Assembly (NCBI GenBank): GCA_020722345.1
Contig: DYKZ01000009.1
Span: forward strand, 1 to 35,417
Length of the DNA: 35,417 nt
Direction of reading: 5' to 3'
From: Anaerolinea thermophila
Lineage (GTDB): Bacteria; Chloroflexota; Anaerolineae; Anaerolineales; Villigracilaceae
Shown here: piece after piece, positions 17,768 through 35,417 of the stretch
Layout of the letters: each line of letters starts with the position of its first letter
Position numbering within the stretch: the first letter of the stretch is position 1
Notes under the pieces: generated by a model
Told to the model about the DNA's origin: nothing
Databases searched by the model: none
The model's input: only the letters and a program-made list of their open reading frames with translations
Translations under genes and position numbers: made by a program

Positions 17768-17776
17768 TGGTATAAC
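17768..17776 (+). promoter_or_regulatory. Extended -10 promoter of the structured RNA
   Basis: TGGTATAAC is an extended -10 box lying 7-10 bases before the predicted RNA start near 17784. It is back to back with the glnA promoter. No good -35 is seen, as with the other TGG-type promoters here. Confidence 0.5.
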
Positions 17777-17783
17777 AATACCC

Positions 17784-17960
17784 CGCTCGTGCCGTGTGCT
17801 GCTGGGTTCTGAACCTGCTTTCGCAGGTCAGGGTCCTGCCCGGCAACTTTCGCCTTGGCCGAAGCCTATCGCGTCATTGTCGCGAGATCGGGCCCTTTTC
17901 AATGGGTGTTGGCTCAGAACGGAGGTGCAGCATCGCGTACACAGCAGGGCACTTGTTTTA
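17784..17960 (+). ncRNA. Structured small RNA of about 175 nt, possibly 6S-like
   Basis: The 5' and 3' ends pair: GTGCC (17789-17793) with GGCAC (17948-17952), GTGT with ACAC, TGCTGC (17797-17802) with GCAGCA (17927-17932), and GTTCTGA (17806-17812) with TCAGAAC (17914-17920). Inside are the hairpin ACCTGC/GCAGGT (17813-17828), AGGGTCC (17830-17836) with GGGCCCT (17890-17896), and TCGCG/CGCGA (17869-17885). TTGTTTTA follows the closing stem, so the stem can act as terminator. Size, end pairing and a promoter upstream are as in 6S RNA, but the branched interior is not clearly 6S. The SRP RNA signature (GGAAGCAG loop) is absent. No reading frame of note is present. Confidence 0.6.
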
Positions 17961-33185: not shown

Positions 33186-34652
33186 CTATTGCAAACCGAC
33201 TTCCCTGTTGAACTCCACGATCAATTCGTCAATCTCATCCGCCTGCTTCTGGACGCCGGTGAAGTAATCGCGGTTGTTCCACATCTCCAGGATCTCGGCG
33301 TAGGTCTTACCCTGCTGCTCGACCCAGGTGAAGTACTTCAGGTTGTGGATCCGGCGGCGGTCAGCGTAGCGCAGTTCGAGCAGGTGGTCGGTGGATTGCC
33401 CGTGCAGGTAGCGGGCGAAGTCGGCGGCGGCGTCCTTCTCGCTGTACTCGCCGTACTCGGCGTGCATTTCTTTCAAGCGGCTCTGGTAGAGTTCCATCGA
33501 GTCGGTCAGCACCGTGACCATGATGTCGTCCTCGCCCATCTCGTAATATTTGGCGGCTTTGATGGCAGAGAGAACATTGGAAATGCCGGAAAAGCCCAGC
33601 AGGTCTAGTTGCGAGACGATTCCTTCGGGAACACCCTTTGACGTAAGATATTTCCGTCCGGCAGGTTCATTGAAAAGCCTGGCAAGATTGACCACTGCAT
33701 TGTCGTCAATGGCAACCACCATGTCGGTGTTCTTTGTGTTGTGGATCCACGGCACGTGCTTGTCGCCGATTCCTTCGATGCGGTGCGCGCCGAAACCGTT
33801 CTCCAGCAGGGTGGGGCATTGCAAGGCCTCGCTGGCAACGATGACGCTGCCCGGGAAGACCTGTTTCATGTAATCGCCGCTGGCGATTGTGCCGGCAGAG
33901 CCGGTGGCAGAGACCATGCCCCGATAGACGCCGCGCGGACCGGCAGCCTGCTTCACCACCTCTTCCATGGCGTGACCGGTGACCTCGTAGTGCCACAGGT
34001 AGTTGCCAAACTCGTCGAACTGGTTGAAGATCATCAGGTCCTGGCCGGAGTTGCGCAGTTCCCAGCACTTGTCGAAAATTTCCTTGACGTTGGATTCGGA
34101 GCCGGGCGTCTTGATCGTCTCCCCGGCGATATTCGCCAGCCATTCGAAGCGCTCTTTGCTCATTTCTTCCGGCAGAATGGCGATGGAGTCGCAGGCCAGC
34201 AGGGACGAGTCGTAGGCGCCGCCGCGGCAGTAGTTGCCCGTCGAGGGCCAGACGGCCTTCTGTGTCGTTGGGTCGAACTGACCGGTCACCAGCCGTGGGA
34301 CAAGGCAGCCGAAGGCCGCCCCCACCTTGTGCGCCCCGGTCGGGAACCACTTGCCGACCAGGACAATGATGCGTGCTGGGACGCCTGTCAGCGAGGAGGG
34401 CAGTTCCAGCCAGTTGACGCCGCCGAACCCACCGCCGCCGGCCTTTGGCTCGTTCTTCCAAGTGATGCGGAACAGGTTGCGCGGATGCACATCCCACAAA
34501 CCGATGCCCTTCAATTCTTCCTTGATTTTGGCCGGGATCTTGGCCGGGTCTTTCATCTGGGCGAAAGTGGGGATGATGATGTTGCGCTCGCGGGCGCGCT
34601 GAATGGCGCGGGCGCGGCGGTCCTTGTGGAGTGTGAGGTCAATTGTGGCCAT
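33186..34652 (-). CDS. Fold-type II pyridoxal-phosphate-dependent enzyme
   Basis: A 488-residue protein from the ATG at 34652 (AGGAG upstream). The PLP lysine is probably K109 in T-G-A-H-K-V-G-A-A-F-G, and the phosphate-binding glycine loop is S-A-T-G-S-A-G-T-I-A-S-G. This places it with the tryptophan synthase beta/cysteine synthase fold. It is longer than O-acetylserine sulfhydrylases, with an N-terminal extension of about 60 residues and a C-terminal extension. The exact reaction cannot be read from the sequence; a beta-replacement enzyme or an OrtB-like thiolase subunit are possibilities. A strong terminator follows the gene. Confidence 0.75.
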   Translation of the reverse strand: MATIDLTLHKDRRARAIQRARERNIIIPTFAQMKDPAKIPAKIKEELKGIGLWDVHPRNLFRITWKNEPKAGGGGFGGVNWLELPSSLTGVPARIIVLVGKWFPTGAHKVGAAFGCLVPRLVTGQFDPTTQKAVWPSTGNYCRGGAYDSSLLACDSIAILPEEMSKERFEWLANIAGETIKTPGSESNVKEIFDKCWELRNSGQDLMIFNQFDEFGNYLWHYEVTGHAMEEVVKQAAGPRGVYRGMVSATGSAGTIASGDYMKQVFPGSVIVASEALQCPTLLENGFGAHRIEGIGDKHVPWIHNTKNTDMVVAIDDNAVVNLARLFNEPAGRKYLTSKGVPEGIVSQLDLLGFSGISNVLSAIKAAKYYEMGEDDIMVTVLTDSMELYQSRLKEMHAEYGEYSEKDAAADFARYLHGQSTDHLLELRYADRRRIHNLKYFTWVEQQGKTYAEILEMWNNRDYFTGVQKQADEIDELIVEFNREVGLQ

Positions 34653-34707: not shown

Positions 34708-34725
34708 TCGCGAAATCTATGGAAT

Positions 34726-34905
34726 GACTCTCCTGCAAAAAAGGCTATTGCACCGCGCAGCACGCGAAGACCGCCAGGAAAATGCAAAATCACAACTCAT
34801 TATTCAAGATAATCTGCGTCGTGGTTCAACATTTTCAAAGCGTCCTTAAATTTCCTTCGTTGCCTTTGTGTCCTTCGTGTTTAAAAAGGTTTTTGCAGTG
34901 GACTC
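34726..34905. mobile_element. MITE-like element (copy D, 180 bp, inverted)
   Basis: The element has the same sequence as the copies at 19892 and 22743 but lies in the opposite orientation. It is flanked by a perfect 7-bp target duplication ATGGAAT (34719-34725 and 34906-34912). It adjoins the promoter of the PLP-enzyme gene. Confidence 0.9.
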
Positions 34906-34922
34906 ATGGAATTGGCTTTATC

Positions 34923-35102
34923 TTACCCCCACTCCTCCACGTCAAACGTCTCGCCGAAGCGCCTATCGAATGCTTTGAGCGTCCCGGTAAGCGCCAGGGC
35001 GGCCAACCGCGCGTTGGGTTGACGCGGCTTGTCCACCCTGTCTCTACAAGCCTTTACGAAATTGGCACCTGGTTTTAATGCAATTCCCAGAAAGTCGTCG
35101 TA
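34923..35102 (-). pseudogene. 3' fragment of an unrecognised protein-coding gene
   Basis: The minus strand is open for 59 codons between a TGA at 35105-35103 and a TAA at 34925-34923, without an ATG. The translation is well balanced and ends N-A-R-L-A-A-L-A-L-T-G-T-L-K-A-F-D-R-R-F, then G-E-T-F-D-V-E-E-W-G. It looks like a genuine C-terminal domain with the 5' part lost. I do not recognise the family. A short gene from an internal GTG (37 codons) is an alternative. Confidence 0.4.
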
Positions 35103-35111
35103 TCATCAAAT

Positions 35112-35312
35112 CAGACCGCAGTTGGTCTGGAAAGGAGGCTTCAGTCAAGCAGATGATTGCAATACCTCAGGGAGGAAAGACCGGGTAAGCCTGCAACAGG
35201 CGCCAGGTCCTCCCGCCTGCGCCAAACGTCTCCACGACGAACGTGGTCTTCCTGTTCTTTCCTCCGCAAGCCGCAAGACTTGGCGGATGGGCGCCCCCCA
35301 TCCGCCTTTTTT
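35112..35312 (+). promoter_or_regulatory. Riboswitch-like structured leader with terminator
   Basis: After a small stem AGACC/GGTCT (35112-35127) comes a long-range 10-bp helix, GGAGGAAAGA (35171-35180) with TCTTTCCTCC (35256-35265), which encloses further hairpins such as GCCTG/CAGGC and CCACG/CGTGG. The base of this helix overlaps CCGCAAG (35264-35270), which can pair with CTTGGCGG (35279-35286); that in turn overlaps the 5' arm of the terminator. This is the layout of a transcriptional riboswitch or attenuator. I could not match it to a known class. Confidence 0.55.
35282..35312 (+). terminator. Intrinsic terminator of the right-end leader
   Basis: GGCGGATGG (35282-35290) and CCATCCGCC (35298-35306) form a perfect 9-bp stem followed by six T residues. 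A reading frame begins 21 bases later. Confidence 0.9.
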
Positions 35313-35333
35313 ATTCCTCCACAGGGCTTTCTC

Positions 35334-35417
35334 ATGGCAGCCGCGCTCTCGGCCCTCTTTGTATTCTTGACTCTACTGCAAAAAGGCTATTGCACCGCGC
35401 AGCACGCGAAGACCGCC
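35334..35417 (+). pseudogene. Gene start interrupted by a mobile element
   Basis: ATG at 35334, after an AGGG ribosome site, opens a frame M-A-A-A-L-S-A-L-F-V-F-L, a hydrophobic start typical of a membrane or exported protein. From codon 12 onward the sequence is the mobile element. The gene is therefore probably disrupted, unless it resumes outside the window. Its position directly after the terminator suggests it was the gene controlled by the leader. Confidence 0.35.
35369..35417. mobile_element. MITE-like element (copy E, cut by window edge)
   Basis: The first 49 bases match the copy at 34726 in the same orientation, starting GACTCTACTGCAAAAAGG. The rest lies beyond the window. Confidence 0.85.

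Follow-up and report, generated by a model that had tools for sequence, protein, structure and literature searches.

A conserved structured RNA folded around a micro-ORF with a probable non-canonical start codon in one family of Anaerolineales

The window, which is the whole 35,417-nucleotide stretch of DNA that we analysed (contig C20 of a 3.07-Mb assembly in 398 contigs), very likely carries a conserved, stand-alone structured RNA at 35112-35312. We consider it probable that this is a small RNA gene of about 200 bases, belonging to a previously undescribed family and tightly folded around a tiny reading frame. More tentatively, we favor a dual-function-like small RNA that is gated by initiation, in which translation of this micro-ORF under the control of IF3 would open the main helix, a long rod. 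The work adds an undescribed structured RNA family that is widespread in one family of wastewater and groundwater Chloroflexota. The features of the locus and its neighborhood are these:

33186-34652, minus strand: divergent upstream gene for a PLP-dependent enzyme of cysteine/threonine synthase fold, 488 aa (PF00291)
35073-35106, plus strand: dedicated promoter, TTTTAATGCA ... TATCAT (-10), a motif conserved in homologous loci
35112-35129, plus strand: 5' hairpin CAGACC-GCAGTT-GGTCTG, from folding and from covariation among close relatives
35131-35138, plus strand: Shine-Dalgarno sequence AAAGGAGG, with AGGAGG before the frame in nearly all homologs
35144-35146, plus strand: codon-1 position, GTC, 5 bases past the Shine-Dalgarno sequence; mostly ATA or ATC in homologs
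35153-35188, plus strand: micro-ORF from an in-frame ATG, MIAIPQGGKTG followed by a stop; the frame is kept in homologs and has been put to coding tests
35171-35188, plus strand: 5' strand of the rod, formed by the latter half of the micro-ORF, stop codon included; pairs with 35247-35265
35190-35226, plus strand: hairpin P4 within the rod, consensus CTGG...CCAG, from covariation
35227-35246, plus strand: probable H-type pseudoknot CGTC-T-CCAC-GACG-AAC-GTGG, from covariation of its stems S1 and S2 and an alignment-free test
35247-35265, plus strand: pyrimidine-rich 3' strand of the rod, TCTTCCTGTTCTTTCCTCC, from folding and covariation
35282-35312, plus strand: intrinsic terminator with T-run, 98-99% of cells paired in homologs
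35368-35417, plus strand: start only of a second repeat copy, outside the RNA, with the contig ending inside it; from repeat matches in the genome

The predicted folding energy of the region is -87 kcal/mol, compared to -66.7 ± 4.6 for 200 dinucleotide shuffles (z -4.43); 0/200 shuffles were as low. An earlier interpretation of the letters (the sequence-only reading) had described a 10-bp closing helix and a strong terminator. Both are indeed there: the helix forms between GGAGGAAAGA (about 35171-35180) and UCUUUCCUCC (35256-35265), and the terminator reads GGCGGATGGG-CGCCC-CCCATCCGCC-TTTTTT at 35282-35312. That interpretation had overlooked the dedicated promoter as well as the micro-ORF and its Shine-Dalgarno sequence. 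The architecture runs from the rod (a lower part of 10 bp, a mismatch, then upper pairs) through P4, a near-invariant block, the 3' strand of the rod and a variable spacer to the terminator.

The sequence-only reading had staked its paired regions on covariation, and all of the main helices do covary. Across 71 distinct aligned homologs, 40/45 pairs have changes on both sides, and the covariation score is 0.364, against 0.150 ± 0.005 for shuffled alignments and 0.03-0.08 for slid partners; because the structural alignments were fitted to their models, such figures favor the tested helices. In an alignment of 31 diverse members (A4), a structure that takes in the inner domain scores 0.377 (shuffled, 0.175; slid, 0.07-0.11). 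All 14 of 14 pairs of the rod helix (35171-35188 with 35247-35265) change on both sides in A4, as do 4/5 pairs of P4, where 86% of cells are paired. The 5' hairpin at 35112-35129 covaries in an alignment of close relatives (A2) and is absent from some genera. We argue that the covariation signal is real because both the slid and the alignment-free controls fall below it.

The near-invariant block after P4, CCAGA-CGTY-..CC..-RACG-A, is a probable H-type pseudoknot as judged from sequence: S1 (CGTY with RACG) and S2 (CCNN with NNGG) both covary in A4, and S2 occurs in homologs as CCAG/CTGG, CCAT/ATGG, CCCAT/ATGGG and ATCAC/GTGAT. In the alignment-free test, S2 scores 2.84, compared to 2.10 ± 0.14 with swapped partners (0/200 as high); it is mostly reduced in two large genera. 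Pairing of AGGAGGU with ACCNCCU, which would sequester the Shine-Dalgarno sequence in a hairpin, is not supported, given that downstream control windows pair equally well or better (5.4 vs 5.8-6.0 of 8).

How widely is the RNA distributed? A blastn search of 100 relatives yielded 14 further loci, and a covariance model built from 11 blastn-derived loci (R1) has matches in 101/152 genomes from the family that the window belongs to (Ca. Villigracilaceae-like, Anaerolineales); homologs do exist elsewhere, as the sequence-only reading had required. R1 usually matches once per genome, with tandem matches in a few. A second model, R2, built from 31 diverse members, has matches in 85/400 sampled genomes of the order, all within the family except for one genome, and over 396 genomes of the class it found no match outside the family. 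Weak class-level matches of R1 (E about 1e-6 to 1e-4) were taken as chance; they are absent with R2 and were probably driven by the terminator. Outside the family, a single strong homolog was found, L114; it lies in a genome from another family of the order (G336) with 9% estimated contamination, and may reflect transfer, contamination or deeper ancestry. A strict DNA pattern, run against species genomes of bacteria and archaea (about 85,000), matched 38 contigs, and the titles of all 38 name Anaerolineales, Anaerolineae, Anaerolinea, Chloroflexi or Ca. Villigracilaceae. The same pattern has no match in viral contigs, and we set aside a phage origin. As far as seen, the RNA family appears to be confined to one Anaerolineales family.

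The rod is almost a palindrome, and for this reason many blastn matches came out on the opposite strand. An RNA on the opposite strand was rejected: the Shine-Dalgarno sequence, the promoter and the T-run fix the orientation and make the family consistent. Tandem copies were observed at loci L066, L070, L074, L082 and L073, and one of them, L073b (L073 10104-10292), is without a Shine-Dalgarno sequence. In one genus, paired copies about 1 kb apart flank a gene for an SH3-domain lipoprotein, and genome G034 holds three copies within 5.4 kb.

The sequence-only reading could not recognise the class of the RNA, and neither can Rfam: none of the 4227 families of Rfam 15, including 6S, SRP, tmRNA and RNase P, matches at the locus. 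Nothing credible appeared there at gathering score or at E values up to 10, the best sub-threshold match being suhB with 17.8 bits against a cut-off of 41; nine homologous loci have no Rfam match either. The sole gathering match of the window is 6S RNA (RF00013, 59.4 bits) at 17776-17953 on the minus strand. We considered RNase P, given that GGAGGAAAGACCGGG resembles the conserved motif of bacterial P RNA. Here it is a strand of a covarying helix and also codes for part of the micro-ORF, and no P RNA is detected by Rfam, so we regard the likeness as coincidence. We found no description of the RNA in the literature on IF3 and leader peptides or on Chloroflexi noncoding RNA.

The locus had been interpreted as a riboswitch-like leader with the logic of a transcriptional ON or OFF switch, in which an antiterminator-type helix competes with the terminator. 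Clustering of the ORFs around about 60 homologous loci refutes the leader: the downstream gene is convergent almost everywhere, often ending 0-30 bases behind the terminator, and there is no conserved same-strand downstream gene at these loci. The convergent gene encodes a PatB-type C-S lyase in 39 loci, and methyltransferases and others elsewhere; the terminator is probably shared with it. Upstream, the gene is usually divergent, with the protein cluster of 33186-34652 present in 26-28 homologous loci. With a convergent gene on one side and a usually divergent one on the other, the RNA therefore stands alone as a gene, in a syntenic gap that is old. The switch logic fared no better. When the 5' arm of the terminator is paired with its own upstream RNA, the mean best stretch is 5.86, compared to 5.99 ± 0.07 with swapped partners (64 homologs); the window's own best stretch is 7 bp. 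No mutually exclusive pairing of terminator and antiterminator is conserved in these 64 homologs. We reject the leader reading because of both the convergent downstream genes and the missing conserved antiterminator.

In support of an independent transcript, TTTTAATG is present in 54/66 homologous loci, and in 51 of these a TATGAT-like -10 element follows 19-20 bases on. This promoter pattern is found exactly once in the window's genome, at the RNA locus. The RNA has, as read from the DNA, the promoter and terminator of its own that are expected of a dual-function small RNA.

Behind the terminator, the sequence-only reading had placed a gene with a hydrophobic N-terminus, cut by a MITE after 12 codons. 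Its landmarks are correct, in that an ATG does occur at 35334, 21 bases past the T-run, and the frame does run into a real repeat at about 35368, but the frame is chance sequence and not the N-terminus of a gene. The 12 codons have no counterpart in the closest relative (L055), which diverges about 11 bases past the T-run and has no ATG there. Nor is any gene broken; the contig ends inside the repeat, and the 'broken gene' is therefore a 12-codon frame before the contig end. The last 50 or so bases of the window have 40 further matches in the genome (41 including this one), many of them at contig ends, and the repeat is complete at 34724-34907, where it measures about 184 bp and has inverted termini. 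The termini read TGA(C/G)TC(T/C)(C/A)CTGCAAAAA. This MITE-like repeat probably fragments the assembly.

An unusual feature of the RNA is the codon that mostly follows AGGAGG at a distance of 5 bases. In 64 homologs, codon 1 is ATA in 34, ATC in 22, ACC in 4, GTC in 4 and ATG in 0; by group, it is AUA or AUC in most genera and GUC or ACC in the window's group. To our knowledge, ACC is not a start codon. An IF3-type start (AUU/AUC/AUA or similar, at proper spacing) is found in 56/64 homologs, and the window has GTC with a downstream ATG, in frame at codon 4, where its 14-base distance from the Shine-Dalgarno sequence exceeds the usual spacing. Of the homologs without ATA or ATC at codon 1, 8/8 have an ATG in frame a few codons downstream (one of them, L062, was reassigned by eye to its own ATG frame), vs 10/56 homologs with ATA or ATC (Fisher 1e-5); the homologs are phylogenetically dependent, so that this statistic, like the coding statistics below, overstates their independence. 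In L086 and L114, there are in-frame stops between the Shine-Dalgarno sequence and the ATG, and the ATG must therefore be the start there, if the frame is used.

Initiation at AUU, AUC or AUA characterises infC, which encodes IF3, the factor that represses such starts. Indeed, the infC genes of 30/30 family genomes (L138, L202-L230) start with ATC (16), ATA (8) or ATT (6); gene callers limited to ATG, GTG and TTG would mis-start infC in the window's family. Characterised genes with AUA, AUC or GUC starts are very few, and ORFs that use them are invisible to gene finders with the same restriction. A GTC start, like codon 1 of the window, is known from Streptomyces sigR and belongs to the non-canonical starts that IF3 represses (PMC5472188). 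By analogy, we infer that the micro-ORF could be controlled by IF3, a plausible reading that we do not hold firmly.

In the window, the frame reads GTC AAG CAG ATG ATT GCA ATA CCT CAG GGA GGA AAG ACC GGG TAA. Its length in homologs is 11-23 codons, mostly 12-19, and the stop lies in or just beyond the 5' strand of the rod; endings of the type GGKTG-stop or G(K/R)T are retained. Among 31 IETPPE-type ORFs, only frame 0 shows conservative substitutions, with a score of +1.46 against a null of 0.14 ± 0.43 (0/500); the other two frames are negative (-0.54 and -0.18). With codons 1, 4 and 5 left out, the signal remains significant, at 0.86 vs -0.11 ± 0.35 (2/500). Codon 17 is a stop in 23/31 of these ORFs and varies between TAA (12), TGA (9) and TAG (2). 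From these evolutionary signs, the micro-ORF is likely to be translated. A 1-base frame shift alters the C-terminal half in L092 and L101, and the peptide itself therefore may not matter. Members of two large genera (L076, L080, L093 and others) have a conserved Pro-Pro-(Glu/Asp/Lys) at codons 4-6, a typical motif for EF-P-dependent stalling.

The same observations could be read in other ways. If the RNA were a small mRNA with a peptide of 10-20 aa as its sole product, and the structure merely stabilised and ended the transcript with no regulation at the RNA level, then the coding signal, the interchange of stop codons and a single short ORF with a perfect Shine-Dalgarno sequence and a terminator would all be expected; conservation of structure beyond the ORF, in P4 and the pseudoknot, would not, and neither would a peptide that is highly variable and frameshifted in L092 and L101. 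We consider this explanation rather unlikely. Conversely, the RNA might be a plain non-coding, trans-acting small RNA, and its frame a side effect of an RNA motif like AAAGGAGGU-N4-AUM-GA. The surroundings of codon 1 can also be read as such a motif, and the C-terminal codons sit in a paired helix. What speaks against a by-product is that conservative substitutions are specific to frame 0 outside the helix, that three stop codons interchange, that an in-frame ATG is found wherever AT[AC] is missing, and that the ORF of L086 and L114 still runs from an ATG despite in-frame stops after the Shine-Dalgarno sequence; this makes a plain non-coding RNA unlikely.

The near-invariant AGGAGG at a fixed 5-base spacing from AT[AC], together with the fact that AUG never occupies codon 1, would also suit a regulatory RNA that binds ribosomes or 30S subunits, trapping 30S in slow or abortive initiation at a near-cognate codon as a sponge, with the peptide incidental. 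A pure trap has no need for codon-level conservation downstream of the start, however, and we find a sponge distinctly improbable. Least of all do we expect a riboswitch or attenuator leader in which P4 and the pseudoknot form a ligand-binding domain and the terminator is the expression platform of a gene that was lost or cut here. A pseudoknotted, covarying domain followed by a terminator is what such a leader looks like, but relatives have no same-strand gene downstream (the gene behind is convergent), a conserved antiterminator was not found, and Rfam has no match in the window's RNA or in nine homologous loci, all of which makes it very improbable. The RNA may still bind a ligand.

For the initiation-gated, dual-function-like small RNA that we favor, the sequence of events would be as follows. 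With a promoter and a terminator of its own, the RNA would be transcribed as a tiny mRNA with a perfect Shine-Dalgarno sequence at optimal distance from a non-canonical start codon, and IF3, we infer, would throttle the micro-ORF as it does infC. Upon successful initiation, a ribosome would run to the stop codon inside the rod and melt its lower part, freeing the pyrimidine-rich 3' strand (...CUUUCCUCC; UCUUCCUGUUCUUUCCUCC in the window); otherwise the rod would stay closed. The freed strand is complementary to Shine-Dalgarno-like sequences and could pair with the Shine-Dalgarno regions of other mRNAs, the pyrimidine-rich strand of the rod being the only feature that suggests pairing with mRNAs. 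The outcome might be such pairing, altered stability, or merely production of the peptide.

That the RNA acts in trans once gated by translation is a tentative proposal. Equally speculative is a dedicated RNA sensor of the fidelity of translation initiation, whose conformation, and hence trans-regulatory activity, would be set by IF3-limited initiation at AUA or AUC; in such a sensor, the micro-ORF would be one strand of the main helix and the pseudoknot would possibly bind a ligand or protein. If IF3 does control the RNA, the status of an initiation factor would be coupled to an RNA switch, an extra layer of regulation.

Compared with known systems, the RNA fails the tested defining features of riboswitch and attenuator leaders and of every Rfam family. 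Attenuator-derived trans-acting RNAs of the rnTrpL/peTrpL type are small RNAs with a leader-peptide ORF, alternative helices and a terminator. The RNA resembles them in these respects but lacks both a downstream operon and a conserved antiterminator. Like 6S RNA (RF00013), it is a rod-like, stand-alone RNA of about 200 nt; unlike 6S RNA, it contains an ORF and a pseudoknot, has no central bubble of 6S type and has no Rfam 6S match. By analogy, it would work most like the dual-function small RNAs (defined in PMC8672173), combined with a start of the infC/sigR type. With VcdRP and SgrS/SgrT, it shares a small, stand-alone, structured transcript, a terminator and a short ORF with a Shine-Dalgarno sequence. 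In contrast to these RNAs, the start is non-canonical, the ORF has only about 10-20 codons and overlaps the main helix, a pseudoknot lies inside, and the family belongs to a different phylum. The start after a strong Shine-Dalgarno sequence, AUC or AUA and in the window GUC, is like that of infC and Streptomyces sigR, but these are ordinary protein genes, and the frame opened in the RNA is a micro-ORF within a structured RNA gene.
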